Below are positions 10,220 to 44,724 of a stretch of DNA of 50,834 nucleotides, piece by piece. Position numbers and translations under genes: made by a program. The notes under the pieces were generated by a model. It worked only from the letters and a program-made list of their open reading frames with translations, was not told the origin of the DNA and did no database searches. Source of the stretch: a bacterium (GTDB lineage Bacteria; Vulcanimicrobiota; Vulcanimicrobiia; Vulcanimicrobiales; Vulcanimicrobiaceae). The first letter of the stretch is position 1, and each line of letters starts with the position of its first letter. The DNA lies in assembly GCA_028869385.1 (NCBI GenBank), contig JAGWSR010000004.1, positions 1 through 50,834 of the forward strand. Reading direction: 5' to 3'.

Positions 10220-10236
10220 CGCCGTCACGCGCGTCG

Positions 10237-11271
10237 TTACGCGCGCGCCTCGTGGATGACCACCGGCGGTTCGTCGTCGGTTCGCGTCTCGATCCAACCG
10301 ATCACGCGCGCACCCGGCGTTGCCGCCGCGGCCTTCTGCGCGTCGGCGAGCGGAACCACGAGCGTGTAGCCCACGCCCATGTTGAGTGTTTTGTACTTCT
10401 CGTCGTACGAGAGGTTGCCGCGGCGCACGAGTTCGCGCATGATCGGCGGCACGTCCCAACGCGCGGCTTCGAACACGGCCTTGAACCCCGGCGGAAGCGT
10501 GCGCGGCACGTTCTCGAGCAGTCCGCCGCCCGTGATGTGCGCCATCGTCTTCACCGTCGCCACGCGTTGGATCGCGCGCACGGCGTCGTAATACGACGGA
10601 TGCTCCGCGAGCAGCGCATCGGCGTAGGTGCCGCCGTCGAAGGCCTGCGTCCACTCCTCACGCGCGATGAGCGCGCGTGCGAGCGAATACCCATTCGTGT
10701 GTAATCCCAACGCCGGAAGACCGATGACGGCATCACCCGCCTGCAGCGATTCCGGCTTCGGCAACGCGTTCACATCCACCATGCCGACGATCGTGCCCGC
10801 GAGGTCGAAGTGTCCGGGAGCATAGAGCCCCGGCATCTCCGCCGTCTCGCCGCCGAGCAGCGCGCAGTTGTGCGCCCGGCACGCGTCGGCGCAGCCTTGC
10901 ACCACCGCCGCCGCGACCGCCGGATCGAGCTTGCCGACCGCAAAGTAGTCCAAGAAAAAGAGCGGCGACGCGTTGACCACGAGGATGTCGTTCACGCAGT
11001 GATTCACGAGATCGCGCCCGACGCCGTCGTAGCGTTGCAGTTCCGCGGCGATCAGAATCTTGGTGCCGACGCCGTCGGCCGATGCCACGAGCGCGCGATC
11101 GCCGCCGCCGGGCATGCGAAAGACGCCGCCGAAGCCGCCGATCGCGTCGAGCTGATCGGGGTGGCGCCAGGCCGAGAGCACGCCCTTGTAGCGCGCGACC
11201 GCTTCGTTTCCGGCGGCAATATCGACGCCCGCGCGTGCGTAGGCATCAGGGGTACGACTTTCGTCGCTCAT
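10237..11271 (-). CDS. purM: Phosphoribosylformylglycinamidine cyclo-ligase (AIR synthetase)
   Basis: ATP-dependent ring closure of FGAM to AIR, step 5 of purine synthesis. The 344-residue length is typical. Clear family segments are YARAGVDIAAGNEAVARYK, GGFGGVFRMP, LVASADGVGTKILIA, GRDLVNHCVNDILVVNASPLFFLDYFA, ALLGGETAEMPGLY and HITGGGLLENVPRTLP. The ATG at 11271 is the only start that preserves the conserved YARAGVD N-terminus. The GNAT-PurN gene follows after a 17-base gap on the same strand, so PurM and PurN are co-expressed. The 99-base space upstream is shared with the divergent pepA. Confidence 0.97.
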   Translation of the reverse strand: MSDESRTPDAYARAGVDIAAGNEAVARYKGVLSAWRHPDQLDAIGGFGGVFRMPGGGDRALVASADGVGTKILIAAELQRYDGVGRDLVNHCVNDILVVNASPLFFLDYFAVGKLDPAVAAAVVQGCADACRAHNCALLGGETAEMPGLYAPGHFDLAGTIVGMVDVNALPKPESLQAGDAVIGLPALGLHTNGYSLARALIAREEWTQAFDGGTYADALLAEHPSYYDAVRAIQRVATVKTMAHITGGGLLENVPRTLPPGFKAVFEAARWDVPPIMRELVRRGNLSYDEKYKTLNMGVGYTLVVPLADAQKAAAATPGARVIGWIETRTDDEPPVVIHEARA

Positions 11272-11347
11272 CGTGCCGCCTCCGAAGGGGTGACGCGCGG
11301 GTTCAGGGGAACAGAACGCTCAGTAATCGCCATCTCAGGCGCTTTAG

Positions 11348-20491: not shown

Positions 20492-21859
20492 CTAACAGAC
20501 GGCGCGCGCGTGATGCGCGGCTGGGACGTTGGGATAGGTTCCGGTCAGGCAACCGAGACACATCTCGTCACCCTTGCGGCCACTTGCCTCGACGAGGCCG
20601 TCGAGGCTGAGATATCCGAGCGAGTCCGCGCCGGTCTTCTTCGCAATCTCGTCGATCGTGAAGTTGGCGGCGATCAACTCGTCGTAGGTCGCCATATCGA
20701 CGCCGAGGTAGCACGGGTGCTTGATCGGCGGCGAGGTGATGCGCAGGTGAACTTCTTTGGCCCCCGCGTCGCGCAGAAGGCGCACGATGCGTGGCGTCGT
20801 CGTGCCGCGCACGATCGAGTCGTCCACCACGACCACGCGCTGTCCGCGCAGGTTCTCCACGACCGGGTTGAACTTCAACTGCACGCTGCGCGAGCGCATC
20901 CCTTGATCGGGGCTGATGAACGTGCGGCCGATATAACGATTCTTGATCAATCCCTCGACGTACGGCAGCCCGCTCTCGGCCGCGTAGCCGATACCGCCGG
21001 GCACGGCCGAATCCGGCACCGCCATCACCACATCGGCATCGACCGGATGTTCCTTCGCGAGCGCGCGTCCCATCGCGTAGCGCGCCATATAGATCGAGCG
21101 CCCGTTCAGTTGCGAATCCGGGCGCGCGAAGTAGATGTACTCGAACATGCAGAGCGCGGGATGCGCCTTCTCGTTGTGCGTTCGATACGATTCGATGCCG
21201 TCGGCGGTGATGCGAACGATCTCGCCCGCCTCGATCTCGCGCAGATACGTCGCGCCGATCGTCGGAAGCGCGCACGATTCCGACGCGACCGCGTAGCCGC
21301 CGTCGGGAAAGGTGCCGATACAGAGCGGCCGCACGCCCCACGGATCGCGAAACGCGTAGAGCTCGTCTTTGGTGCAGAGGGTGATCGAATACGCGCCGCG
21401 CGCGACGCGCAGCACCGCTTCGATGCGCTCGAGCATCGTGCCCTTCGCCTCGACGATCGTCTTCGCCATCACTTCGGAATCGGAGGAGGCGAGCAGGGTC
21501 GTCGTCGGCGCGAGCGACTCGCGCAGGTCGTCGGTGTTGGTAAGATTGCCGTTATGCGCGAAGGCGAAGTCGCCGATCTCGGTCGTCTCGAGCAACGGCT
21601 GCGCGTTGACGACGACCGACGAGCCGGTCGTCGAGTAGCGCGTGTGACCGATCGCTACGAAGCCGGAGAGCTCGGAGAGCGTGGATTCATCGAAGATCGC
21701 CCCGATGAGGCCCATATCTTTGTGCGAGCGGATCGTGCCGCCGTCGCCCGCGGCAATACCCGCGGACTCTTGTCCGCGATGCTGAAGGGCGTAGAGCCCG
21801 AAATAGGCGATACGCGCCGCGTCGCGCCCCGGCGCAAAGATCCCCGTAATGCCGCACAT
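20492..21859 (-). CDS. purF: Amidophosphoribosyltransferase
   Basis: First committed step of purine synthesis: PRPP plus glutamine to phosphoribosylamine. The N-terminal nucleophile glutaminase starts directly with MCGITGIFA, so C2 is exposed after Met removal and there is no propeptide of the B. subtilis type. HTRYSTTG and AHNGNLTN complete the glutaminase site. The PRPP loop VVVVDDSIVRGTT lies at about 342-354. Four cysteines in CMFEYIYFARPDS (C237), HPCYLG (C383) and MCLGCLTG (C434, C437) match the 4Fe-4S ligands of the Bacillus-type enzyme, implying an oxygen-sensitive cluster. The length of 455 is typical. It is followed by clc at 4 bases. Confidence 0.97.
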   Translation of the reverse strand: MCGITGIFAPGRDAARIAYFGLYALQHRGQESAGIAAGDGGTIRSHKDMGLIGAIFDESTLSELSGFVAIGHTRYSTTGSSVVVNAQPLLETTEIGDFAFAHNGNLTNTDDLRESLAPTTTLLASSDSEVMAKTIVEAKGTMLERIEAVLRVARGAYSITLCTKDELYAFRDPWGVRPLCIGTFPDGGYAVASESCALPTIGATYLREIEAGEIVRITADGIESYRTHNEKAHPALCMFEYIYFARPDSQLNGRSIYMARYAMGRALAKEHPVDADVVMAVPDSAVPGGIGYAAESGLPYVEGLIKNRYIGRTFISPDQGMRSRSVQLKFNPVVENLRGQRVVVVDDSIVRGTTTPRIVRLLRDAGAKEVHLRITSPPIKHPCYLGVDMATYDELIAANFTIDEIAKKTGADSLGYLSLDGLVEASGRKGDEMCLGCLTGTYPNVPAAHHARAVC

Positions 21860-21872
21860 GGTCTATAAGACC
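21860..21872. promoter_or_regulatory. Palindrome directly upstream of the purF start
   Basis: GGTCT-ATA-AGACC is a perfect 5-bp inverted repeat touching the purF ATG. On the purF strand it contains TATAGA, which could also be read as a -10 hexamer of a leaderless or very short-leader transcript. The whole gap to the upstream gene is only 18 bases. The role as operator, promoter or RNA hairpin cannot be distinguished. Confidence 0.3.
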
Positions 21873-27807: not shown

Positions 27808-27826
27808 CCGCGCGAGCGGCGGCTAG
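27804..27826. terminator. Hairpin spanning the convergent stop codons of two genes
   Basis: CTAGCCGC and GCGGCTAG-type arms form a stem of about 8 bp. The hairpin includes the TAG stop of the protease gene and the stop of the convergent purD (CTA on the plus strand). There is no T-run on either side, so it may be a weak bidirectional transcription block or an mRNA 3'-end structure rather than a classic intrinsic terminator. Confidence 0.35.
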
Positions 27827-29097
27827 AACTTCGCGATATCCGTGCGATAGGTGAGATCGTTCGTGCCGATACGGCCCGCGAGCGTCTTCACCGCATCGTA
27901 GGCGTTCGCGCGCGCGTTCGCGAGATCGTCGCCGAGCGCGGTAACGGTGAGCACGCGTCCACCGCCGCTCTTCACCGTGCCATCGACGAGCGAGCTACCG
28001 CCCCAGAACGCCTGCGCGCCGGGCGGCAACGAGAGATCGGGATTCAAGCCCGAGAGCGGCGTGCTCGAACGCGGATACGCACTCGTCGCGAGCACCACGC
28101 CCACGCACGCTTGCGCCGACGTCGTCGCGAGGCTCAAGTCCATCGCACCGTCCGCGCACGATTTGAGCAGCCCCGCGAAATCGCCGTTGATGCGCGGCAT
28201 CAGCACTTGCGTCTCCGGATCCCCGAACCGCACGTTGAACTCGATCACGTACGGCCCATTCTCCGTCCACATCAGCCCGCAATAGAGCACCCCGATATAC
28301 GCTTCAGCCTCGGCGAGCAGCCCGCGCAGAACGGGCGCAAGAATGCGCTCGCGAACCTGGTCGTACATATCCGCCGGAAAGCCCTGCGGCGGCGAATACG
28401 ACCCCATACCGCCCGTGTTGGGCCCCGTGTCCCCGTCGCCCGCGCGTTTGTAATCGCACGCCGCCGCCATCGGCACCATCGCCCGTCCATCGGCAAGCGC
28501 AAAAACGCTCACCTCTCGCCCAACGAGCATCTCTTCGAGCAACACATCCGCGCCGCCACCGGGAATCTTGTTGCCGGAGTACCACTCGGTCAACACGCCG
28601 CGCGCCTCATCAACGCTCTTACAGACTACGACGCCCTTACCGGCCGCAAGCCCATCGGCCTTCACCACGACCCCGCCGCCGCGCCACTCATCGAGCGCCT
28701 TCATCGCCGTCGCAAGCGAATGCACCACCGCCGCCTTCGCGGTCGGAACGCCATGCCGTTCCATGAACCGCTTCGAAAACACCTTACTCGACTCGAGCCG
28801 CCCGCCCGAGCGATTGGGCCCAAACACCGCAATCCCCGCATCGCGCAGCCGATCGCCAACGCTCGCCGCAATCGCAACCTCCGGCCCAAGCACCACGAGG
28901 TCGATCTTCTCTTCGAGCGCCCGCTCGACGATACGCTTCCCATCGGTCGCCGGAATATCCCAATTCGTACCACGAAGCGCCGTGCCGGCATTCCCCGGCG
29001 TCGCAAACAACGCATCACACGAAGCCGACTGCGCGAGCCGCCACGACAAGGCGTCCTCACGAGCCCCATTCCCAACAACCAGAATCCGCATACCCAT
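27823..29097 (-). CDS. purD: Phosphoribosylamine-glycine ligase (GAR synthetase)
   Basis: ATP-grasp enzyme joining phosphoribosylamine and glycine, step 2 of purine synthesis. The 424-residue length is typical. MRILVVGNGAREDALSWRLAQS, LVVLGPEVAIAASVGDRLRDAGIAVFGP, SKVFSKRFMERHGVPTA, VVKADGLAAGKGVVVC, VLLEEMLVGREVSVFALADG, DYKRAGDGDTGPNTGGMGSYSP and YVIEFNVRFGDPETQVLMPR are all diagnostic. The family usually begins directly at MRILVV, so ATG 29091 is equally likely as start. Upstream lies a 71-base gap with an A/T-rich stretch (TTTTAAAAAAA on the plus strand), the only such run nearby and a plausible promoter for purD apart from guaA read-through. Confidence 0.97.
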   Translation of the reverse strand: MGMRILVVGNGAREDALSWRLAQSASCDALFATPGNAGTALRGTNWDIPATDGKRIVERALEEKIDLVVLGPEVAIAASVGDRLRDAGIAVFGPNRSGGRLESSKVFSKRFMERHGVPTAKAAVVHSLATAMKALDEWRGGGVVVKADGLAAGKGVVVCKSVDEARGVLTEWYSGNKIPGGGADVLLEEMLVGREVSVFALADGRAMVPMAAACDYKRAGDGDTGPNTGGMGSYSPPQGFPADMYDQVRERILAPVLRGLLAEAEAYIGVLYCGLMWTENGPYVIEFNVRFGDPETQVLMPRINGDFAGLLKSCADGAMDLSLATTSAQACVGVVLATSAYPRSSTPLSGLNPDLSLPPGAQAFWGGSSLVDGTVKSGGGRVLTVTALGDDLANARANAYDAVKTLAGRIGTNDLTYRTDIAKF

Positions 29098-32874: not shown

Positions 32875-34008
32875 TTAGGTGAGAATCGCCTCCAGGCGGC
32901 CGGCGTCTCGCGCCATCACGAGTTCCATCGCGATGCGCTCGCCGACCGAGACGTCGCGGCCCCAGCGGTAGGACGAGTAGGGGGTGTACCGCGTTCCGGG
33001 CGAGCCCGGGATGCGCAGCGAGACGTCGTAGCAGACGAACTCCTTCGGCGGCCCGGCCACGATGATGCACTGCAGCGCGAACGGCCCGATCACCCCCGGC
33101 GGGTTCGCCTCGCGCGCCGCCCGCACGAAGCGCTCCCCCATCTCGAACGCCTTCTCGAGCGTGGATTCGGTCAGCGTCGCCGCGATATGCCCCGCTTCTT
33201 CCAACCGCATCGGGACCGAGCGCAGCGCGTCGTACACCGACGGCGGCACGTTGCGAAACCCCTCGAGGTTCGTTTGGCGACGCGTGTCGGTGCCCATCAG
33301 CTCGAGTTCGTCGAGGAGCGGCGAGTAGAAGAAATTCAAGTTGACCGATGGCCCGAGCAGATACTCCTCGATCACGGCGTCCTTGAGGCCGGCCTCGGTC
33401 AGCATGCCGTCGCGCATCAGGCGCTCGCTCGTCTCGCGATACTCTTGCGGCGACGAGACCAAGAAGAATGCGCGCTCGAAGCTCACCTTCGCGTGCGGTG
33501 CCTTGACCATCACCAAGCGATCGATCTCGTCGGGCGAGGCGAACTGGTGCGGATGGCGGATCCCGGCGCGCTGCATGAGCGCATACTGATTGCCGGCCTC
33601 GTCGCGCTCTTCGGCGCGCAGCAGATAGCGATTGCCGAAAAACGGCACGCGCATCCCGCGCTCGATCTCGTCGTAGCTAAACTTCTGGTGCAGATAGACT
33701 TCGAACGAGCGATTGGCGAGAAAGACCACGTTGCGCGCCAAGAGCTGCTCTTGCACCTCGGGGTTCAGCAACTCCGTGAAGGCGCCGAGTTCGAGCACCT
33801 CGTCCACACAGCCGCGCGGAACCGGCGTCTCCTTGCGCAGATAGTGCTCGGTGTAGGTGCGCTCGCGCCCCTTCGCGGTAACGACCAGGTTGCGCAGCCC
33901 CTGCGCGCGCGCGCCATAGGCGACCTCGAGCGCGGAGTGGCTGCCGATCGAACAGAGCGTCAGGCGCGAGCGGTCGTACGCGCGCAGCGCGTCATCTACG
34001 AAGTCCAC
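32875..34008 (-). CDS. PurP-like ATP-grasp protein, divergent paralogue
   Basis: A 377-residue member of the PurP family (formate-dependent AICAR ligase), recognisable from LTLCSIGSHSALEVAYGARAQGLRNLVVTAKGRE, VPFFGNRYLLR, VIEEYLLGPSVNLNFFYSPLLDELELMGTDTRRQTNLEG and the C-terminal VGERIAMEL. Key positions differ from the second copy at 37462-38484: the Gly-rich nucleotide loop is replaced by VKAPHAKVSFERAFF, VPHGSF by FLANRSF, and the metal-binding MEISAR segment by YDVSLR. It may therefore catalyse a different ligation or be regulatory. It is the last gene of the purine run, 9 bases after cydB. Confidence 0.82.
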   Translation of the reverse strand: MDFVDDALRAYDRSRLTLCSIGSHSALEVAYGARAQGLRNLVVTAKGRERTYTEHYLRKETPVPRGCVDEVLELGAFTELLNPEVQEQLLARNVVFLANRSFEVYLHQKFSYDEIERGMRVPFFGNRYLLRAEERDEAGNQYALMQRAGIRHPHQFASPDEIDRLVMVKAPHAKVSFERAFFLVSSPQEYRETSERLMRDGMLTEAGLKDAVIEEYLLGPSVNLNFFYSPLLDELELMGTDTRRQTNLEGFRNVPPSVYDALRSVPMRLEEAGHIAATLTESTLEKAFEMGERFVRAAREANPPGVIGPFALQCIIVAGPPKEFVCYDVSLRIPGSPGTRYTPYSSYRWGRDVSVGERIAMELVMARDAGRLEAILT

Positions 34009-34017
34009 GCCGCCCGG

Positions 34018-35004
34018 TTACTCACCGACCGAAAGCTTTCCCGCCAGGCGCCGCGTCACGTAGGTGCCGTAGATCAGCACCGCGACCAGGCCGACGATCG
34101 TCACGGCGAGCGCGCTCGCGAGGGCCGCGGGCGAGGGCGCCGCATCGAAAATCGAGATCCCCGGAATGCTCGGGTTCAAGCTCGGCAAGAGATCCGGGTA
34201 GAGTGTCGCGGCGGCCTGCAGCATCAGCGTCGCGAGCCAGAGCGAGGATGCGGCAAAGGTCGCACGCTCCGCGCCTCGCCGCAGCGCCACGAGCATCCAG
34301 ACGAAGGCCGCGAGCGTGAGCGCGGGAATCGCGAGCAGCGCATCGGCGTGCACGCCGCGGGCGATCACCGTGAGCAGGCTCACGAGCGCGTAGAGCGCGA
34401 GCGTGAGATACCAGAGTTTCGATGCGAGCGTGCGAGCGCGCTCGGTCGCGGCGCCGCGCGTTCGCATCACGAGAAAGGCGCACCCGTGCAGCGCGAGCGC
34501 GCAGAGGGCGAAGAGGCCGACGACCAGCGCGTACGGATTGAGCAAGCGCGCGAAGGTTCCGGTAAAGAATCCCCGATCGTCGAGCGGCAGTCCGTGCAGC
34601 AGGTTCCCGAGCGCCACGCCGAAGAGCACGATCAAGAGCGCGCTCGAAAGCGCGAAGCACGCATCCCAGAACGTATGCCAGATCTCGCTCGGAAAGTGCG
34701 CGCGCAACTCCATCGCGATTCCTCGGCCCATCAAGAGCCACAGCACGATGATGAGCGGCAGATAGAATCCGGAGAACGACGAGGCATACGCCTTGGGAAA
34801 GAGCGCGAAGAGCGCAGCGCCCGCTGCGATCAGCCACACTTCGTTGCCGTTCCAGAACGGACCGATCGCGCGCATCGACCCTTCGCGCTCGCGATCGGTG
34901 CGCGCGACGAGCGGCGTGATCGCCGCGACGCCGAGATCGTACCCGTCGAGCAGCACGTACATGCCCAGCATCACGCCGATCAGCACGAACGCCACGGTGC
35001 TCAT
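34018..35004 (-). CDS. cydB: Cytochrome bd-type quinol oxidase subunit II
   Basis: Membrane subunit of the bd-type terminal oxidase that reduces oxygen with quinol electrons. The 328-residue protein begins MSTVAFVLIGVMLGMYVLLDGYDLGVAAITPL, the conserved first helix with DGYDLG, followed by IGPFWNGNEVWLIAAGAALFALFPKAYA, and has about eight or nine hydrophobic segments. ATG 35004 is chosen because it overlaps the cydA stop (ATGA); the longer open frame upstream lies within cydA. No CydX or cydCD genes are seen nearby. Confidence 0.95.
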   Translation of the reverse strand: MSTVAFVLIGVMLGMYVLLDGYDLGVAAITPLVARTDREREGSMRAIGPFWNGNEVWLIAAGAALFALFPKAYASSFSGFYLPLIIVLWLLMGRGIAMELRAHFPSEIWHTFWDACFALSSALLIVLFGVALGNLLHGLPLDDRGFFTGTFARLLNPYALVVGLFALCALALHGCAFLVMRTRGAATERARTLASKLWYLTLALYALVSLLTVIARGVHADALLAIPALTLAAFVWMLVALRRGAERATFAASSLWLATLMLQAAATLYPDLLPSLNPSIPGISIFDAAPSPAALASALAVTIVGLVAVLIYGTYVTRRLAGKLSVGE

Positions 35005-36344
35005 GCGTGCGCCTCCGCAATGCCCGGCGTCGCCTCGGCACTCGGACCATTCGCGATCTCGCGCAGCGTCAGGTACAGAAAGAGCACGCCGAGGAGAAAG
35101 TACATCCCGGCGAAGCCGAGCAGCGTGAAGATCGTCTCGCCCGTCACCACGGTCGGCGAGACCCCGTCGGCGGTGCGCATGATGCCGTAGATGATCCACG
35201 GCTGCCGCCCCACCTCGGTCGTCACCCAGCCGGCCTCGTTCGCAATGTACGGAAACGGCATCGCGAGCAGCAACATCCAGAGCACACCGCGCGCCTCGAA
35301 GAGACGCTTGCGCGCGAGCATGAGCACGGCGAGCGCCGCGATGCCCGCGAAGATCGTGCCGAGCCCGACCATCACGTGATACGCATAGTACGTCAGTTCG
35401 ACGGGCGGCCAGAGCTCGACGGCATAGGCGTTCAAGCCCTTCACATCCGCATTGAAGTTCCCGTAGGCGAGAAAGCTCAGCACGTCGGGAACGAAGACGG
35501 GATCCATCAAGCGGCGCTCGTGCACGTCGGGCATGCCGATGATCGCGAGCGGCGCGCCGTGCGTGGAGTCGAAGAGCCCCTCCATCGCGGCGAGTTTGAC
35601 CGGCTGATACTCGGTGACGTTCGAACTATTGCGATCGCCGGTCGGAAAGATCGCGAGGATCGAAAAGACCAGCGCCACGATCGCGCCGCCGCGCACGAAG
35701 CGCTGCGCGAGCGCGATCTCGCGGCGCGAGAGCAGATAGTACGCGCCGATTCCCGCCACGATAAAGCCGCCCGCCACCATCGCGCCCGCGAGCACGTGCA
35801 CGTACTGCCACCACGCGAAGGGCGAGAGCAGCACCGCCGCGAGACTCGTGAGTTCCACGCGATGATCGGGCGCGAGCGCGTACCCGACCGGATGTTGCAT
35901 CCACGCATCGGTCGCGGTGATGAAGAATCCCGATAGCCACGAGCCGATCCACACGAGCACGCCCGATGCCACGTGCAGCGCCGGCGCCACGCGCCCCTTG
36001 CCGTAAAGCAGTACGCCGAGAAAGACCGACTCGAGGAAGAACGCGTACACGCCCTCCATCGCGAGCGGCTGACCCACCACTGCGCCGCTCGCCGCGGAGA
36101 AGCCCGCCCAATTCGTACCGAATTGGAACTCCATCGGAATCCCGGTGACCACACCGATCGCGAAGTTGACCGCGAATATCTTCGTCCAGAACGCCGCGGC
36201 CTTCGCGGCGTCGGCATCGCCGCGCGCGGCACGCGCGGTGTAGAACGCGACGAAGGGCGCGAGGCCCATCGTCGTGATCGGAAACAGGTAGTGGAACATG
36301 ATCGTGAACGCGAATTGCAGTCGATCCGCCATCACCACGTCCAT
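35001..36344 (-). CDS. cydA: Cytochrome bd-type quinol oxidase subunit I
   Basis: Catalytic haem subunit, 447 residues, about nine membrane helices. RLQFAFTIMFHYLFPITTMGLAPFVA holds the first haem His (H18); EFQFGTNWAGFS, QPLAMEGVYAFFLESVFLG with the two channel glutamates, and WVTTEVGRQPWIIYGIMRT with the GRQPW motif are all diagnostic. The quinol-binding (Q) loop after GDRNSSNVTEYQPVKLAAMEGLF is of the short type, as in cyanide-insensitive oxidases, rather than the E. coli long loop. It starts 18 bases after the upstream exported-protein gene within the purine run, so respiratory and purine genes may share a transcript. Confidence 0.96.
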   Translation of the reverse strand: MDVVMADRLQFAFTIMFHYLFPITTMGLAPFVAFYTARAARGDADAAKAAAFWTKIFAVNFAIGVVTGIPMEFQFGTNWAGFSAASGAVVGQPLAMEGVYAFFLESVFLGVLLYGKGRVAPALHVASGVLVWIGSWLSGFFITATDAWMQHPVGYALAPDHRVELTSLAAVLLSPFAWWQYVHVLAGAMVAGGFIVAGIGAYYLLSRREIALAQRFVRGGAIVALVFSILAIFPTGDRNSSNVTEYQPVKLAAMEGLFDSTHGAPLAIIGMPDVHERRLMDPVFVPDVLSFLAYGNFNADVKGLNAYAVELWPPVELTYYAYHVMVGLGTIFAGIAALAVLMLARKRLFEARGVLWMLLLAMPFPYIANEAGWVTTEVGRQPWIIYGIMRTADGVSPTVVTGETIFTLLGFAGMYFLLGVLFLYLTLREIANGPSAEATPGIAEAHA

Positions 36345-36362
36345 CGCCCACCTCCCTCTCGG

Positions 36363-37481
36363 TTACGCTTGTAAGATCTTTTGCGCTTGCGCGGAGTCCT
36401 GGTATTCCACCGTGAGAATCGCACGCAGGTGCGCCGCCGCCGCGAGTGCCTCGGGGCTCGTCATACGTTCGAGCGTCACGATGCACGAATAGAGCAGCAT
36501 CGGCATATCGCGATCGCGCGGATAGACCTTGTGCATATCGTCGATCGACTCGGCCACGAGCACCGTCTGGCCGGCCTCGCGGTTTCCGTACTTGTAGTCG
36601 AGCATGAAGTTGATGTGCTTGAGCTCGTTCTCGATGCCGAGCACCGAGTACCCCATGCGGCCGAAGTACTCATCGGCCGGGGCGAGCGTCGTTAAATACC
36701 GATCGTGCGGCACCGCGGTCGTGCTCGCGATGACGAGCGGCGACGTGAGATGGTTGATGCGAGCCAAGATCGTCTGCGCGTTGCGCCGATCGCCGGCGGT
36801 CGCGCCGTCGTTCCCGACCGCCGCGATGTTGACCGCGCGCAAAAACTCCGACCCGTAGGTCGTCGGCAGATGCGCGATGGGGAAATCGGGCTGGGCCGCG
36901 CGTTCGAGCGCGAGCGAGCGCCACGACGGATCGTGCGTCAACACCCACGCGCGCCAATCGGCCTCGACCTGCTGGAGGTCGGCGGTAACGTCGTGCGGGT
37001 ACGCCTGCGCGTTCGCCACCGCGTCGGCATCGGCGTCGCGCGCGAGCGTCTCCGGGGCGCTCTCGGAGTTCACCCGTTCGAGCAGCGCCTTCGCGTCGCT
37101 CGCGAGCGTCGGATCGGTCGCGTTCTTCTCCACCCACTCCGCCGCTTCGCGCACCCACCAGACCGCCGCATCGTGATTGGTCAGCGGATTGTAGTGCAGT
37201 CCGCTCGCGACGGTGACGGTGAGCGTGGCGAGTTCGCCGTACGCCGGATCGTTCGGGCGCTGCAGCGAGTAGGCGCGCCCGGCGTTGAAGATCGTCGAGA
37301 GGTAGAGTTCTTGATCGCGAAAATCCCAGTTCGCGGCGGCGGCTTTGTCGTACGCGCTCTTCATCTGCGCGTAGAGGACGGAGGGATCGGCCTCCATCGC
37401 AGCGCGGGCGTGCAGCGGCAGCAAGACCGCGGCACACGTCGCGACGAGGAGGGCGAATCGATTACAGCACGCTTGAATCAT
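36363..37481 (-). CDS. Predicted exported helical protein of unknown function
   Basis: A 372-residue protein. The N-terminus MIQACCNRFALLVATCAAVLLPLHARA is a clear signal peptide. The mature chain is mostly alpha-helical, with TPR-like Ala/Tyr-rich stretches (YAQMKSAYDKAAAANWDFRDQELYLSTIFNAGRAYSLQRPNDPAYGEL and HDAAVWWVREAAEWVEKNA) and no cysteine pairs. I recognise no catalytic motif. Its ATG lies 20 bases inside the end of the upstream purP gene, and cydA starts 18 bases after its stop, so it is firmly part of the purine/cyd operon. It may be a periplasmic scaffold or binding protein; this is a guess. Confidence 0.8.
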   Translation of the reverse strand: MIQACCNRFALLVATCAAVLLPLHARAAMEADPSVLYAQMKSAYDKAAAANWDFRDQELYLSTIFNAGRAYSLQRPNDPAYGELATLTVTVASGLHYNPLTNHDAAVWWVREAAEWVEKNATDPTLASDAKALLERVNSESAPETLARDADADAVANAQAYPHDVTADLQQVEADWRAWVLTHDPSWRSLALERAAQPDFPIAHLPTTYGSEFLRAVNIAAVGNDGATAGDRRNAQTILARINHLTSPLVIASTTAVPHDRYLTTLAPADEYFGRMGYSVLGIENELKHINFMLDYKYGNREAGQTVLVAESIDDMHKVYPRDRDMPMLLYSCIVTLERMTSPEALAAAAHLRAILTVEYQDSAQAQKILQA

Positions 37482-38484
37482 CCAAAACGAGACGCAGGTT
37501 ATTGGTTAGCAAGGCGTTTTTGAGCTCGCGGGCGATGCGACGGCCGGTGGACATCGGCTCCGAGTAGTTCAGGTACGAGTACGGCGAGCCGTCGATGAAG
37601 AGATTCGTTCCGGCGACGATGCGCGCCGAGATCTCCATCACGTAGAACTGCATGTCCGGCGTGATGATCGTCTCGATGCAGAACGCGCCGAAGAGGCCCT
37701 TCGGTCCGCAGATCTCCTTGGAGACCTTTACCACGTTCTCGCCCATCGCAAACGCCTCGGCGAGCATGGACTCGCGCAGGCTCACCGACTGGTTGCCGAC
37801 GACCACGTAGGAGGGGCTCACGTCCATGCCCTCTTGCGCCGCGGCCGGGATGCGTCCGAGCGAGTCCACGTTGGTCTCGTAGCGACGATCCATCGACATG
37901 ATCTCGAGCCGATCTTCGAGCGGCGAGTAGAAGTAGTGGATGTAGAGCGGCACGCCGATGATGTATTCCTGAATCGTATAGGCTTTCTTCAGCTCGCCCG
38001 CGCGCTTCTCGAAATCCGCCGCGTCGCGAATGAACATGTAGCCCTTGCCGCCGCCCGCGCCGTAGAGCTTCACGATCACGGGGCGGTCGATCTCGGCGCC
38101 GGTCTTGAACTGACGCGGCATGCGGATGCCGGCCTGCGTGAGCCAGTCGCGCTGCAGTTCGCGGCTCGACTCCCAATCCAGCACCGCCTTGTTGCCGAAG
38201 TACGGAATCGTCATCTTCTTGTGCTCGTCGAGCGAGAGATACGCAACAAACGAACCGTGCGGTACGATGATGGACTTACGGTCTTCGAGTTCGCCGATCA
38301 ACCCCGGGAACTCCGAGTAGCTATCGACGCCGATCACTTCGTCGATGAAGGCGAACGAACGGTAGAGGCGCTCCGTATCACGATTGGCGACGGCGAGGGT
38401 CTTGAACCCTTCGTCGTGCGCGCCTTTGAGAATCTGCAGCGCCGAGTGCGAGCCGAGGGTAGCGATCGTGTACGGACGGTTCAT
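37462..38484 (-). CDS. purP: Formate-phosphoribosylaminoimidazolecarboxamide ligase (archaeal-type)
   Basis: ATP-grasp enzyme that formylates AICAR to FAICAR with formate and ATP, replacing the folate-dependent transformylase of PurH. The 340-residue chain keeps the family landmarks: TIATLGSHSALQILKGAHDEGF, IIVPHGSFVAYL, IPYFGNKAVLDWESSRELQ, VIVKLYGAGGGKGYMFI (Gly-rich nucleotide loop), IQEYIIGVPLYIHYFYSPLEDRLEIMSMDRRYETNVD, and FYVMEISARIVAGTNLFIDGSPYSYLNYSEPMSTGRRIARELK. Characterised PurP enzymes are from archaea. The ATG directly follows the purS stop, placing it inside the purB-C-L-Q-S operon where a folate enzyme would be expected. Confidence 0.92.
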   Translation of the reverse strand: MNRPYTIATLGSHSALQILKGAHDEGFKTLAVANRDTERLYRSFAFIDEVIGVDSYSEFPGLIGELEDRKSIIVPHGSFVAYLSLDEHKKMTIPYFGNKAVLDWESSRELQRDWLTQAGIRMPRQFKTGAEIDRPVIVKLYGAGGGKGYMFIRDAADFEKRAGELKKAYTIQEYIIGVPLYIHYFYSPLEDRLEIMSMDRRYETNVDSLGRIPAAAQEGMDVSPSYVVVGNQSVSLRESMLAEAFAMGENVVKVSKEICGPKGLFGAFCIETIITPDMQFYVMEISARIVAGTNLFIDGSPYSYLNYSEPMSTGRRIARELKNALLTNNLRLVLDDSSVL

Positions 38485-38892
38485 TTACGCTCTGTGTGCC
38501 TTCTCGATAGCGGGGTTGCAAAGCAGTCGTTCTGCGGCGTCGCGCAGCATCTCGTCGCTCGCGGGCGAGCCGTTCGCATCGAGCAATCGCCAGCCGACGT
38601 AGCGGCGGCCGAGCGCGGCGCGCGGTGCACCGAGCTCCTCGATCCACATCTCGCCCGCGCGCGGCGCCACGCCGTCGATGACGGTCAGGCGATGCTTGTT
38701 CGGATTGAAGATCGTCTCGTTGCGCTCCATGCGCGCGGCGAAGTCGCTCGCGTCGCCCGCATCCTCGACGACCCAGATCTCGCTGCGCTCGACGCGCGCG
38801 AGTGCGAGCCCGAGGCGCTGCAGCGTCGTGAGCGCCGTGTAGGCGGCGTTGTCGGGAATCTTGAGGGTGATCGCAAAGGCGCGCTGCGTCAT
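38485..38892 (-). CDS. purS: PurS-like subunit of FGAM synthase, with central insertion
   Basis: Small subunit linking PurL and PurQ. The N-terminal FAITLKIPDNAAYTALTTLQRLGLALARVERSEIWVVE has the beta-alpha-beta pattern of PurS, and the C-terminal EMLRDAAERLLCNPAIEKAHRA matches its typical AxxLLANPVIE ending. At 135 residues it is about 50 longer than usual; residues about 50-110 (MERNETIFNPNKHRLTVIDG onwards) are an insertion with several aromatic residues. ATGA overlap with purQ and immediate adjacency to purP support the assignment. Without the context the similarity alone would be weak. Confidence 0.75.
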   Translation of the reverse strand: MTQRAFAITLKIPDNAAYTALTTLQRLGLALARVERSEIWVVEDAGDASDFAARMERNETIFNPNKHRLTVIDGVAPRAGEMWIEELGAPRAALGRRYVGWRLLDANGSPASDEMLRDAAERLLCNPAIEKAHRA

Positions 38893-39656
38893 GCGTTCAC
38901 CGCCTGCACGAAGCTGCGGAACATGATCGCGCCGCCCGAAGGGGCGAGGATCGCGTTGCCGCCGCGGCGGTCGGGATGGTTATACGTCCAACCGTCGCGC
39001 TCCGGATGCGGCATCATCGCGAGCACGTTCCCCTCGCGATTCACGAGCGCCGCGCAGCCGAGCGCCGACTGGTTGGGCGTCGCGCTCGCGTCCACGCTTC
39101 CGTCGGGATGCGCATACACGAATGCCACGTGACCTCCCGCTTCGAGTCTCGCGAGTTCCTCGGGCGTGGCCGCGAGACGCCCCTCACCATGCGCAGCCCA
39201 TGCGGGCACGAGCGCGTCGCGCTGCAGCCCGCGCGTGATCGGCGAGCGCTGCGGATCGATCGCGAGCTTCACGTGCACGTGCGTGCAGATGAAGTGCGGA
39301 ACCGGACCGTTGCGCGTGAAGGCCGCGCTCGGGCGCCGCACGTCGCCCGTGCCGGGAACGAGCCCCGCCTCGAGCAGAATCTGCGCGCCGTTGCAGATGC
39401 CGTACACGAGCTTGCCCGCGCCCGCACCCTCGATGACGTAATCCATCATCTCGTCGTGCGCCGCGATCGCTCCCGCGCGAATGCGATCTTCGTAGGCGAA
39501 TCCGCCCGGCAGCACGTACGCGTCGAACTTGGGCAACAGTTTCGCGTTGCTCCAATGCACCAGATGCGCGTCACCGCCGCACGCCCGCAGGAGCCGCAGC
39601 GTCTCTTCTTCCGAATTGGTGCCGGGAAAGACCAGCACCGCGATGCGCTTGTTCAT
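38889..39656 (-). CDS. purQ: FGAM synthase, glutaminase subunit
   Basis: Class I glutamine amidotransferase that feeds ammonia to PurL. The 255-residue chain has VLVFPGTNSEEETLRLLRACGGDAHLVHW, YVLPGGFAYEDRIRAGAIAAHD, the nucleophile motif VYGICNGAQILLEAGLVPG (C88), and LAMMPHPERD with the catalytic His and Glu. The segment RNGPVPHFICTHVHVKL is standard for PurQ. It overlaps purL (ATGA) upstream and purS (ATGA) downstream. Small PurQ plus 756-residue PurL plus PurS is the three-part Bacillus-type enzyme. Confidence 0.97.
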   Translation of the reverse strand: MNKRIAVLVFPGTNSEEETLRLLRACGGDAHLVHWSNAKLLPKFDAYVLPGGFAYEDRIRAGAIAAHDEMMDYVIEGAGAGKLVYGICNGAQILLEAGLVPGTGDVRRPSAAFTRNGPVPHFICTHVHVKLAIDPQRSPITRGLQRDALVPAWAAHGEGRLAATPEELARLEAGGHVAFVYAHPDGSVDASATPNQSALGCAALVNREGNVLAMMPHPERDGWTYNHPDRRGGNAILAPSGGAIMFRSFVQAVNA

Positions 39657-41923
39657 GGATACACCTCACGCAGCGGGGCGCTCCATACGCCGTGCAGTCG
39701 ATGGAGATCGAAGGCTTCGTCGTCCACGGCGATCACCGGCTGATCGGTCGTCACGCCGATCTCCCAGATGCCCTCGACATCGTCCGCCAATCCCTCGAAA
39801 GCGTCGACGTCGGCCGCCGCCACTTCGACGACGAATCCGCCCGTCTCGGCGAAGAGCGCTTCGAGATCGCCGACCGCGCCATGCGTCCACTGCCACGGCT
39901 CGTCGATCTGCACGCCGACCGGCTTATGCCCACGGCGTAACGTCGGGAACGCCATCTCGCAGAGCGCGACGACCAACCCGCCATTCCCCAGCTTGTGTGC
40001 GGAGCGCAACAGATTCACGCGTGCGGCTTCGCGCACGAGCGCATGCTGGGCGAGCGCGAGATCGTAGTCGATGCGCGGCACGCGCGCTTCGTGACGACCG
40101 AGCACGTCGAGCAGCACCGAACCACCGAGCGCCGCTTGAGGACGCCCGATGAAGTAGAGCACCGATCCCGCGGCTTTCAGCGACATCGTGACGACGTGCG
40201 CGACGTCGTCGAACGCGCCGACGCAGGCGACGATCGGCGACGCGGGCACCGCGCTTCCGCCCGCCGACTCGTTGTAGAGGCTTACGTTGCCCGACACGTA
40301 GGGCGTCGCGAAGGCCGTGGCGGCATGCGCGAGACCGTCGAGCGCGGCGACGAACTCACCCAAGTGTTCGGGCTTGCGCGGATTGCCGAAGTTCAAGCAG
40401 TCGGTGAGACCGACCGGACGGCCGCCGACCGCGACGACGCCGCGCACCGCCTCGTACACGGCATGCTCGGCGGCGAGGCGCGGGTCGAGTTTCGCGATGC
40501 GCGGATTGCCGGCGACCGCGAGCGCCACGCCGAGCGTGGAACCCGGAACCGGCGCGAGCACGCCCGCATCGCCCGCGCCGCGCGGCACCACGGTGCAGCC
40601 GCGCACGACCGAATCGTAGCGGCGATAGAGCGGTTCGCGCGAGCACACGTCGCGATGCGCGAGCACGCGCTCGAGCAACTCGTCGAGTTGCACGCCGGTC
40701 ACGAGCGGGCGCTCGTCGGCCGCATGCGGCGCCTGCGGTTCGGCGTAGGGGAGTTCGTCGCGAATCGAGCCGGTGAGAAACTCGATATCGACGTCCATCA
40801 CGGTCTCGCCGCGATGACGCAGCACGTAGCGCGGTTCGTCGGTGACCGTACCGATGACGACGGCGCGCGCGTTGTACGCGATCTGCGGGAGCGTAAACTC
40901 TTCATTGTAGATGCGCAGCACGTCGGCGGTGATCTCCGGCGGCAGCACCCAGATCAAGCGCTCCTGCGTCTCGCCGACCGCGATCACTTCGGGCTTGAGC
41001 CCTTCGACCGCGAGATTGACCTTGTCGAGGTCGATCGACGCGCCGTACCCGCCCGCCGAGCAGATCTCCGCCGAGCAGCCCATGATGCCGCCCGCACCGA
41101 GGTCCTTGTAGCCGACGGTCAGATTGCGCTCGCGCAGGTAGCCGAAAACGCGATAGCTCGCGCGCATCAGCACGTTCTTGAGGAACGGATCGGGCACTTG
41201 CACCGCGCCCTTGTTCGAGGCTTCGTCGGCCGCGTCGAGCGTGAGCGACGAGAACGATGCGCCGCCGAATCCGCTCGGATCGGTCGCCTTGCCGACGAGC
41301 ACGATATCCCATCCGTGCGCGCCCTTGGGAGCGTAGGAATGGATGATCTCCGACTCTTTGACGATGCCCATCGCGACGACGTTGACCAAACAATTATCGT
41401 CGAAGCGTTCGTCGAAATAGACGTCGCCCGCGATGTTCGGCACGCCGATGGCGTTGCCGTAGGCGGAGATGCCGTCAACGGCGCCCTGCGCGACGTAGCG
41501 TTGGTGCGACTGCGCGTCCTCGATGCGCCCGAAGCGCAACGGATCGGCGACGGCGATCACCTCGGCGCCCATGCAGAGCACGTCGCGCACGATCCCGCCG
41601 ATACCGGTCGCCGCGCCTTCGAACGGCACGACTTGCGACGGATGATTGTGCGACTCGTGCGCGATGACGACGCCGTAACGCTCGCCGTTGAAGTCGCCGA
41701 TGTGCAGGATGCCCGAGTCCTCGGCGGGGCCGAGGATCACGCTCTCGCCGTTCGTCGGGAGCTTCTTCAGATGGTGGCGGCTCGACTTGTACGAGCAATG
41801 CTCGCTCCACTGCGCGTCGAAGGCGTGCAGTTCTACCGTCGTCGGCGCGCGACCGAGGCGCTCCGCGATGCGCGCGAGTTCGTCGGGTCGCAGCGCGACG
41901 TTGGCGCTCTCCGCGCTACCCAA
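39653..41923 (-). CDS. purL: FGAM synthase, large subunit
   Basis: ATP-dependent amidation of FGAR, step 4 of purine synthesis. The 756-residue length is typical of small PurL. WSEHCSYKSSRHHLKKLPT, VIAHESHNHPSQVVPFEGAATGIGGIVRDVLCMGAEVIAVADPLRFG, GNAIGVPNIAGDVYFDERF, DLGAGGIMGCSAEICSAGGYGA and LTDCLNFGNPRKPEHLGEF are diagnostic. The start is TTG 41923, which overlaps the purC stop by eight bases and has GGGAG six bases upstream inside purC; no closer ATG or GTG preserves the conserved N-terminus. Confidence 0.97.
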   Translation of the reverse strand: MGSAESANVALRPDELARIAERLGRAPTTVELHAFDAQWSEHCSYKSSRHHLKKLPTNGESVILGPAEDSGILHIGDFNGERYGVVIAHESHNHPSQVVPFEGAATGIGGIVRDVLCMGAEVIAVADPLRFGRIEDAQSHQRYVAQGAVDGISAYGNAIGVPNIAGDVYFDERFDDNCLVNVVAMGIVKESEIIHSYAPKGAHGWDIVLVGKATDPSGFGGASFSSLTLDAADEASNKGAVQVPDPFLKNVLMRASYRVFGYLRERNLTVGYKDLGAGGIMGCSAEICSAGGYGASIDLDKVNLAVEGLKPEVIAVGETQERLIWVLPPEITADVLRIYNEEFTLPQIAYNARAVVIGTVTDEPRYVLRHRGETVMDVDIEFLTGSIRDELPYAEPQAPHAADERPLVTGVQLDELLERVLAHRDVCSREPLYRRYDSVVRGCTVVPRGAGDAGVLAPVPGSTLGVALAVAGNPRIAKLDPRLAAEHAVYEAVRGVVAVGGRPVGLTDCLNFGNPRKPEHLGEFVAALDGLAHAATAFATPYVSGNVSLYNESAGGSAVPASPIVACVGAFDDVAHVVTMSLKAAGSVLYFIGRPQAALGGSVLLDVLGRHEARVPRIDYDLALAQHALVREAARVNLLRSAHKLGNGGLVVALCEMAFPTLRRGHKPVGVQIDEPWQWTHGAVGDLEALFAETGGFVVEVAAADVDAFEGLADDVEGIWEIGVTTDQPVIAVDDEAFDLHRLHGVWSAPLREVYP

Positions 41924-43115
41924 TGCCGACTCCCGGCGGCATCTGCCCCTGCTGCTGCAGCATCGCGTCGGCCTGCAGCACCAGCGAGCGCGCGTTGGCC
42001 TGCATCAAGAGCGTGCGTCCGTAGAGCACGGTATCGTCGAGCGCGAGCATCTTCGCGCACTGCATCGCGACCGCGTTCGCGTCACCCGCCGCGCCGAAGA
42101 CCGGCGACGACGAAGCCGCATCGAGCATCGCGCGCAGCATCTCGTCGCCGCCGACCGCGATGAAGAACACGCGAGCGAACGTCGCTTCGAGTTGCTGCAC
42201 GAGCTGGAGTACGTAGCCGGGCGTGCGCGACGGGCTCGCCACATGGCGCACCGTCGGAAGGCCGAGTTGCTGCAACGCCTGCGCGACGGCGTTCGCCGTC
42301 TCCACCCGCTCGGGCCCGTCGCAGATCACCGCGGCCATGCCGGGACGCATCACCGGGAACGTGCCCACGAGATCGGCGACCTGCTCGTACGCCGCCTTGA
42401 CGCGTTCGAGCGCCGCGTCGGTGACTTCGGGAAGGTTGCGGTACATCTGTTTGTCGAGCATGAGCTCTTCGCGGCCCTGCGGCCAGATGCGCCACGAATC
42501 GTTATCGATCACGTCGGCGATCACGAGTTGCCCCTTATCAGGACCGCCCACGAGCCGCCCGAACTCGATCTTGAGATCGACGAGCAGCACGTCGCGTTTG
42601 CGCCACGCATGCGCGAGCACTTCGAACGTGAGGCGCGCGAGCTCGGTCATCACGCCGAGTTCGGTCGGCGAGGCGATCCCATCGGCGATGATCTGCTCCG
42701 GCGCGATCTGCGGATCGTGACGTGCATCGTCTTTCAAAAAGAATTCGATGACGCGCGGCACCATCAGCGCCCCGCGCGCGACGCCCGGATTGCGCTTGAC
42801 GAACGAGCCGGCGGCGACGCCGCGCGTCACCACTTCAAGCGGAATCATGTTCGCGCGACGCACGAGCATCTCGTTGTTGTCGTCGTCTTCGCCGCCGCTC
42901 AAATAGTGGGTCGGCAAACCGCACAGGTTCAGCAGGCGAAAGACGCGCGCCGTGGTCTGCGCCGCGAGACGTCCCTTGCCCGCGATCACGTTCTTGCGAG
43001 CACCATCACCCGCCGAGATGCCGTCGGTCTGCGCGACCACGAGTTGATCCGGCGCCCCCGGATGCTCGTAGAGCACCTTGGTCTTGCCGCGCGCGATTTC
43101 GATGCCTTTGTTCAT
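41916..43115 (-). CDS. purC: SAICAR synthase fused to a degenerate PurE-like domain
   Basis: A 399-residue protein in the order of animal PAICS. Residues 1-255 are SAICAR synthase: IARGKTKVLYEH, VVAQTDGISAGDGARKNVIAGKG, MIPLEVVTRGVAAGSFVKRNPGV, LLVDLKIEFGRL and VIDNDSWRIWPQGREELMLDKQMYRNLPEVTDAALERV. Residues about 260-380 follow the PurE fold (MAAVICDGPERVETANAVAQALQQLGLPTVRHVASPSRTPGYVLQLV). The PurE phosphate-binding GS-x-SD is CDGPER here (265-270), and the catalytic His of SAHRTP is Ser in SPSRTP (294-299). Carboxylase or mutase activity is therefore doubtful. A structured 193-base region separates it from purB, so its translation may be controlled there. Confidence 0.9.
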   Translation of the reverse strand: MNKGIEIARGKTKVLYEHPGAPDQLVVAQTDGISAGDGARKNVIAGKGRLAAQTTARVFRLLNLCGLPTHYLSGGEDDDNNEMLVRRANMIPLEVVTRGVAAGSFVKRNPGVARGALMVPRVIEFFLKDDARHDPQIAPEQIIADGIASPTELGVMTELARLTFEVLAHAWRKRDVLLVDLKIEFGRLVGGPDKGQLVIADVIDNDSWRIWPQGREELMLDKQMYRNLPEVTDAALERVKAAYEQVADLVGTFPVMRPGMAAVICDGPERVETANAVAQALQQLGLPTVRHVASPSRTPGYVLQLVQQLEATFARVFFIAVGGDEMLRAMLDAASSSPVFGAAGDANAVAMQCAKMLALDDTVLYGRTLLMQANARSLVLQADAMLQQQGQMPPGVGIG

Positions 43116-43308: not shown

Positions 43309-44724
43309 TTAGATTTCTACGATTTTTTGTTTGGGGAAGGCTGGGAGGGCGGTGATTTTTTGGGCGACGGCGGCGGCTCGCTTGGGAGCGGTGCCGACGT
43401 GTTTGCTCGGGTCGAGGAGGCGGCGGATTTCGGCGGGGTCGACCAGCGCGGTGAGCGAGGGGTCGGCGGTGAGGGTTTGGGCGAGCGGGTTGTCTTCGCC
43501 GCGGGCGAGGGCGGCCCAGGCTTCCATCGCGGCGCTGCGGATCTGTTCGTGCAGCTCTTGACGGTTGCCGCCCGCGCGTGCGGCCTCCATCATCACGGCT
43601 TCGGTGCCGGCGAAGGGGCCGTAGGTGCGCAGGTTGTGCGCGATGCGGCGCTCCTCGACGCGCAGGCCGTCGATCACCTTACGCGCGAGCGTGATGATCT
43701 CGTCGGTGCAGAGCAGCGCTTCGGGCAGCGTCGTGCGACGGTTGGCGCTGTCGTCGAGCGTGCGCTCCAGATAGTTCGTCGCGGCGTTCTGCCAGGCGAC
43801 GTCGCTGTAGCCGAGCAGCAGGCGCGCGAGCGAGTCGATGCGCTCGCACATGATCGGATTGCGCTTGAAGGGCATCGCGGAGCTGCCGACCTGTGACTTG
43901 CCGAAGGGTTCGGCGACCTCACCGAACTCCGGGCTCGAGAGGATGCGAATGTCGGCCGCAAACTTCGAAAGCGACGCGCCGACGCCGGCGAGCGCGGAGA
44001 GCAGCAGGTAGTCGAGCTTGCGCGGATAGGTTTGCGTCGCGATCTCGCGCGCTTCGAGTCCGAAGGCCGCGAGCACGTGCGTCTCGAGTTCGCCGGAGCG
44101 ACCGTCGTGATCGAGGAGGTGCTCGTACGACGCCGCGGTGCCGACCGCGCCGCGCAGTCCTTTGGTGGTGAGCTGCTCGAAGACGAAGCGCAGGTTGGTG
44201 TCGTCGATCAGAAGATCTTGCGCGTACATTGCGAGGCGGTAGCCGAGCGTCGTCGGCTCCGCGGGTTGCAGATGCGTGAACGCCATGCAGACCAAGTCGC
44301 CGTACTGCCCGATGCGCTGCGCGAAGCTCGCGAGCAGGCCACGCAGGTTCTCGCCCACCATCGCGAGCGCGAGGCGCAAGCGGTAGGTCTCGACCGTATC
44401 CTCGATGTCCATCGAGGTGGCGCCGAGGTGTAGTTTGCCGCCGCCGAGCTTCGCCTGCGAAGCGAAGACGCGGATCTCGGCCATCAAATCGTGGTGAATC
44501 TCGCGCTCGATCTCGAGCGCCGCCTCGACGTCGATCTCGCCCGCGTGCGCGCGCAGATCGGCGACCTCTTCGGCGGTGACGAGTCCCTTGGCCATCTGCG
44601 CTTCGGCGAGCGCGACCCACACGGCACGCCACAACTTGCGGCGATCTTGTTCGGAGAATAGCGTGCGAAGCTCGGCTCGGCCGTATCTCCAAGAGAACGG
44701 CGACGCGTACGTACGGTAATCCAT
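43309..44724 (-). CDS. purB: Adenylosuccinate lyase
   Basis: Removes fumarate from SAICAR and from adenylosuccinate. The 471-residue chain has REIHHDLMAEIRVFASQA, KLHLGATSMDIEDTVE, MAFTHLQPAEPTTLGYRLAMYAQDL and the fumarase-superfamily signature GSSAMPFKRNPIMCERIDSLAR (around residue 280-300), with the mobile-loop serine. Length and the TS(M)DIEDT motif match the PurB group found in mammals rather than the shorter Bacillus type. It is the promoter-proximal gene of the purine run. On the plus strand its last 100 bases are unusually G-rich with T6 runs. Confidence 0.96.
   Translation of the reverse strand: MDYRTYASPFSWRYGRAELRTLFSEQDRRKLWRAVWVALAEAQMAKGLVTAEEVADLRAHAGEIDVEAALEIEREIHHDLMAEIRVFASQAKLGGGKLHLGATSMDIEDTVETYRLRLALAMVGENLRGLLASFAQRIGQYGDLVCMAFTHLQPAEPTTLGYRLAMYAQDLLIDDTNLRFVFEQLTTKGLRGAVGTAASYEHLLDHDGRSGELETHVLAAFGLEAREIATQTYPRKLDYLLLSALAGVGASLSKFAADIRILSSPEFGEVAEPFGKSQVGSSAMPFKRNPIMCERIDSLARLLLGYSDVAWQNAATNYLERTLDDSANRRTTLPEALLCTDEIITLARKVIDGLRVEERRIAHNLRTYGPFAGTEAVMMEAARAGGNRQELHEQIRSAAMEAWAALARGEDNPLAQTLTADPSLTALVDPAEIRRLLDPSKHVGTAPKRAAAVAQKITALPAFPKQKIVEI

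Follow-up and report, generated by a model that had tools for sequence, protein, structure and literature searches.

The two purP genes in the main purine operon of the analyzed DNA (a 50,834-nucleotide stretch of contig JAGWSR010000004.1, called the window below) form a pair of archaeal type, one gene belonging to cluster Ib and the other to cluster II of the PurP family. In the reading that we prefer, and to which we assign a probability of about one half, this pair has stayed in the main purine operon since the ancestor of the class Eremiobacteria and forms FAICAR in parallel to PurH, an intact copy of which is encoded on another contig of the same genome. The genes of the window that are considered here are listed in the order from purB to purD, with a separate PurN-type frame at the end.

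43309-44724, minus strand: purB (TIGR00928, 369 bits, above cut-off)
41916-43115, minus strand: purC fused to a degenerate PurE-like domain (partial matches to TIGR00081 and TIGR01162, both below cut-off; motif check)
39653-41923, minus strand: purL, small type (TIGR01736, 675 bits, above cut-off)
38889-39656, minus strand: purQ (TIGR01737, 191 bits, above cut-off)
38485-38892, minus strand: PurS-like divergent subunit of 135 aa, abutting purP Ib; its LLCNPAIE end is conserved
37462-38484, minus strand: purP of cluster Ib, 340 aa, with the canonical ATP-grasp loop and AICAR/formate contacts
36363-37481, minus strand: protein of 372 aa without a Pfam match and with a signal-like N-terminus, between the purP genes; conserved in many family-1 genomes
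35001-36344, minus strand: cydA (PF01654; synteny), an insertion between the two purP genes that part of the class has
34018-35010, minus strand: cydB (PF02322; synteny), 9 bp before purP II; start approximate
32875-34008, minus strand: purP of cluster II, 377 aa, GTG start, with H258, the ER[AG]FF loop and D310 and without the Gly-rich loop
29169-30713, minus strand: guaA (NF000848, 789 bits), located after purP II in most relatives
27823-29097, minus strand: purD (TIGR00877, 411 bits; synteny)
9101-10654: PurN-type frame (TIGR00639, 138.5 bits, slightly below the cut-off of 150.1)

Both purP products belong to the PurP family over their full length, the DUF1246 and DUF1297 domains scoring above the gathering score in each of them (Pfam scan E-values of 1e-41 and 1e-66 for the protein encoded at 37462-38484, and of 2e-31 and 7e-55 for that encoded at 32875-34008). 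Among solved structures, they come closest to P. furiosus PF1517 (2r84, E 2e-99) and M. jannaschii MJ0136 (2r7k, E 2e-59), respectively; the first protein is below all NCBIfam PurP cut-offs (381 vs 580 bits). In the alignment, its Gly-rich loop reads VKLYGAGGGKGYMF, with GAGGGKGY, and the substrate contacts H27, S94, N258, S266, and R314 (here and below in M. jannaschii numbering) are intact. The second protein has VKAPHAKVSFERAFF at the position of the Gly-rich loop, carries His for N258 and Asp for E310, and has lost N320, while DVSLRIPGSPG replaces the metal-binding segment of cluster I. Its predicted structure has a mean pLDDT of 85 and a TM score of 0.82 to M. jannaschii PurP (2r7m). An initial annotation of this DNA had described two archaeal-type PurP paralogues in a bacterial purine operon, one keeping the ATP-grasp and substrate motifs and the other lacking the Gly-rich loop and having a changed metal-binding segment; the Pfam matches, the solved relatives, the operon neighbors, and the residues given above bear out this description.

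Archaeal PurP proteins were divided by Brown et al. in 2011 into clusters Ia, Ib, and II, the last being marked by His for Asn at position 258, a loop longer by two residues, and little left of the P-loop (PMC3261824). The reaction of cluster II was left unassigned at that time (PMC3261824), and our literature search found no later test of it. The alignment includes 183 archaeal, CPR, and Eremiobacteria sequences in which site 258 is occupied, by Asn in 88 of them and by His in 95. Gly159, Gly162, and Gly163 are kept in all 88 Asn258 sequences, and Arg164 and Phe166-167 are present in all 95 His258 sequences. These residue sets match clusters I and II of Brown et al. (PMC3261824), and the window pair is thus assigned to Ib and II: the 37462-38484 protein has N258 and the GGxG loop, whereas the 32875-34008 protein has His258, a loop that is two residues longer and ends in ER[AG]FF, and no P-loop glycines. 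H27 and R314, whose role as formate contacts comes from Brown et al. (PMC3261824), are kept in both clusters, and the AICAR phosphate contacts are conserved in both copies. All aligned cluster II sequences share the catalytic-looking residues K156, E199, D310, and R314, and N208 is fixed in them as well.

In the tree, which was computed without the loop and column 258, cluster II was recovered as a clade (SH-aLRT 99) with the 32875-34008 protein inside it and monophyletic with archaeal cluster II; the 37462-38484 protein groups with PF1517 and the CPR proteins (SH-aLRT 96), and cluster Ia (MJ0136) is separate. The initial annotation had taken the altered copy for a neofunctionalized PurP of unknown reaction and had proposed a phylogeny including the archaeal groups as a check. 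This phylogeny speaks against a local event, as it places the altered copy in archaeal cluster II and the canonical one in Ib; the same changes had been described in archaea (PMC3261824) and recur in 95 aligned sequences. The other half of that claim, the lack of an assigned reaction, stands and applies to the entire cluster II. The cluster II residues, the tree placement, and the confident predicted fold matching M. jannaschii PurP identify the 32875-34008 protein, at the level of sequence, as an ancient archaeal-type paralogue of cluster II and not a product of local neofunctionalization. Recent duplication followed by decay of one copy was considered separately and is ruled out by the tree and by the dN/dS of 0.07-0.09.

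Measured against two close relatives, dN/dS is 0.04-0.05 for the Ib gene and 0.07-0.09 for the cluster II gene, compared with 0.13 for purL and 0.09-0.11 for guaA; both purP copies are under strong purifying selection, at or below the level of these two operon genes. Distances of the Ib and II partners are correlated across 47 genomes or loci (r = 0.92), a part of this correlation being shared species history. The nearest relative outside Eremiobacteria is a Gottesmanbacteria gene for both copies (support of 99 for Ib and 80 for II). In the simplest reading, the pair was probably acquired jointly by the ancestor of the class Eremiobacteria and then jointly retained.

Eremiobacteria are a class of soil bacteria, and the host has its sequence relatives among Candidatus Eremiobacterota / Vulcanimicrobiota genomes. 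Of the 79 genomes of the class that were searched, 78 carry two or more PurP-family genes, the sole exception being 70% complete, and no PurP was found in the 19 other genomes of the phylum. By synteny, purB, purL, purQ, guaA, and purD are linked to purP throughout the class, and the ancestral order is purB-purCE-purL-purQ-(PurS-like)-purP_Ib-purP_II-guaA-purD. Some members of the class, the window among them, have the 372-aa protein and the cytochrome bd genes cydAB inserted between the two purP genes (34018-37481 in the window). The PurS-like gene matches the PurS family PF02700 in 10 of 13 orthologues (best 2e-5) and only with an E-value of 0.04 in the window copy; judged by sequence, it is a divergent PurS. 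In the PurE-like domain fused to PurC, ASPSRTP stands for SAHRTP and the usual catalytic His is absent, and this region is degenerate in relatives too. The window also contains purN-type and purM-like genes (9101-11274; the latter assigned by inspection of the sequence) and purF (20495-21862, minus strand), at distances of roughly 10-25 kb from the operon with the purP pair.

The initial annotation had also noted the absence of purH and had proposed a formate-dependent late purine pathway. No purH is indeed present within the window; however, the genome encodes an intact bifunctional PurH of 524 aa on contig C138 (locus L004, 8041-9615), which scores 596 bits with NCBIfam NF002049 against a cut-off of 402 and can be aligned with M. 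tuberculosis PurH from one end to the other. The substrate and catalytic motifs that were checked, among them GRVKTLHP, IDIGG, AAKN, RYGxNP, and KHxxPCG, are retained in this protein and in nearly all of 26 sequences, with the exception of one looser pattern. Contamination was considered as a source of this contig and is unlikely, as 74 of the 79 class members have the PurH formyltransferase domain and housekeeping genes of smc, rnc, and fabF type (identified by reading the sequence) lie on the contig, the smc-type gene adjoining purH. FolD is encoded in the genome as well; PurT had no match above cut-off, and formate-THF ligase was not found in the genome. PurH, FolD, and the PurN-type protein make the folate route available, so that dependence of the late pathway on formate cannot be concluded, and an AICAR formyltransferase domain outside PurP is inconsistent with an obligate PurP pathway. 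The lack of a PurT match and the spread of PurH in the class also argue against the proposed pathway. Its refutation was to come from a complete purH combined with no AICAR ligase activity of the canonical copy, and the purH half of this combination has been found.

In the parallel route that we propose, the pair would make FAICAR from AICAR, formate, and ATP beside the folate-dependent PurH, and the cyclohydrolase domain of PurH would then close FAICAR to IMP. The Ib protein would bind ATP and AICAR in the usual ATP-grasp mode. The cluster II protein, which keeps the formate and AICAR phosphate contacts without the Gly-rich loop, may serve as the partner of the Ib subunit, or it may be another AICAR-formylating form that clamps ATP differently. 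The family and cluster membership, the class-wide retention beside PurH, the linkage, and the constraint were observed; AICAR formylation by the pair is what we infer. The points in its favor are (i) the residue sets and the tree, (ii) the retention of H27 and R314, (iii) the operon linkage, the retention of both PurP genes and PurH across the class, the dN/dS values, and the correlation of partner distances, (iv) the ligands of the Ib protein PF1517, the crystals of which contain ATP, AMP, and AICAR by their PDB titles, and (v) three archaeal genomes described below. The points against it are that PF1517 (Ib) and PF0421 (II) of P. furiosus are each reported to have had no AICAR formyltransferase activity in tests (PMC3261824), that the step is redundant in a genome with PurH, and that all cluster II proteins have His258 at a site touching the AICAR carboxamide, and thus the substrate may differ. 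A two-subunit enzyme of Ib and II, inactive singly and providing a second, folate-free route from AICAR towards IMP beside PurH, is an idea that we hold only tentatively; if true, it would account for the failure of the archaeal proteins when assayed singly.

The redundancy with PurH, together with the N258 to His change and N208 fixed in cluster II and the linkage to guaA, would also suit a pair that ligates formate or another small acid to another imidazole or nucleotide, apart from IMP supply, for example in removing excess AICAR phosphates. This activity is improbable given the tight linkage to the AICAR-making purB and purC and the conservation of the AICAR phosphate and formate contacts in both copies. 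Another role is suggested by the absence of the Gly-rich loop from a protein whose predicted fold is intact (pLDDT 85, TM 0.82 to 2r7m) and whose constraint is strong: cluster II could be a pseudoenzyme that acts as a structural or regulatory subunit of an Ib-II hetero-oligomer and senses AICAR or a purine nucleotide. No Ib without cluster II was found among the genomes where both copies were classified, as expected for such a subunit; yet at least three genomes of archaea have cluster II and lack Ib, and K156, E199, D310, and R314 are invariant in it, which makes the pseudoenzyme role rather doubtful.

These three archaeal genomes (G118, G136, and G159) combine cluster II without Ib with a stand-alone match to the PurH cyclohydrolase domain and no AICARFT domain. 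If the drafts are complete there and purines are made, this combination fits cluster II as the only PurP candidate for AICAR formylation. It also bears on a proposal raised in 2011 (PMC3261824), according to which AICAR is formylated by Ib and the missing IMP cyclohydrolase is supplied by cluster II, the pair being a full folate-free substitute for PurH. Many archaea with Ib and II have no known cyclohydrolase (PMC3261824), and the His for Asn at the carboxamide contact can be read in the same way. In Gottesmanbacteria, the purine operon of locus L041 (5748-10956) contains purP_Ib-purA-purP_II-purB among other purine genes, and the draft genome has no match to AICARFT (PF01808); the pair must then cover formylation and something must cyclize FAICAR, and cluster II may itself be the cyclohydrolase there. 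On the other hand, a PurH cyclohydrolase domain accompanies the pair in Eremiobacteria and in many archaea, and cluster II beside a stand-alone cyclohydrolase, without Ib, is the opposite of what the proposal predicts, which argues against cluster II as merely a cyclohydrolase and leaves the proposal unlikely. The Gottesmanbacteria draft fits the PurH-free idea of the initial annotation better than the window genome does.

Archaeal genomes with PurP of cluster II only are represented by the loci L191, L193, L196, and L197, and a sister group (L182, L186, L189, and L202) has Ib with Lys for Ser at the AICAR phosphate contact 266, which would fit an ongoing loss of Ib. Pfam scans of some neighbors of two lone cluster II genes found no purine genes near them.

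A survey of 2014 regarded PurP as exclusively archaeal (PMC4177761), and we found no relevant literature on PurP in CPR bacteria or on purine synthesis in Eremiobacterota. The archaeal pair of Ib and II and its coexistence with PurH in Methanosarcinales are known already (PMC3261824); as far as the searched literature shows, the fixation of the pair across a bacterial class, its CPR relatives, and the genomes with cluster II only are new. The archaeal pair has become a fixed feature of a bacterial class retaining PurH, and it is found in some CPR genomes too. The bacterial proteins, encoded in a defined operon, are material for probing what cluster II does, and the archaea with cluster II only and the Gottesmanbacteria operon provide two contrasting natural tests.

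Comparison with known systems revealed the following likenesses and differences. The 37462-38484 protein shares its loop, its contacts, its closest solved sequence, and its clade with archaeal cluster Ib (P. furiosus PF1517, PDB 2r84-2r87); in contrast to the latter, it occurs in a bacterial host with intact PurH and scores below the NCBIfam PurP cut-offs. With archaeal cluster II (P. furiosus PF0421, Sulfolobales, Methanosarcinales), the 32875-34008 protein has in common His258, the longer loop, the lack of P-loop glycines, and an Ib partner, whereas VSFERAFF is typical of Eremiobacteria, and the gene lies in a bacterial purine operon near guaA. Both window copies share the fold and substrate contacts of the FAICAR synthetase MJ0136 of M. 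jannaschii, but they belong to Ib and II, while cluster Ia acts as one gene, in the absence of cluster II and PurH1 (PMC3261824). Methanosarcinales with PurH and two PurP genes show the same coexistence of Ib, II, and full PurH, known since 2011 (PMC3261824); there it is archaeal, whereas here it is fixed across a bacterial class. A pair kept beside PurH also resembles the case of E. coli, where both PurN and PurT are kept for one step.
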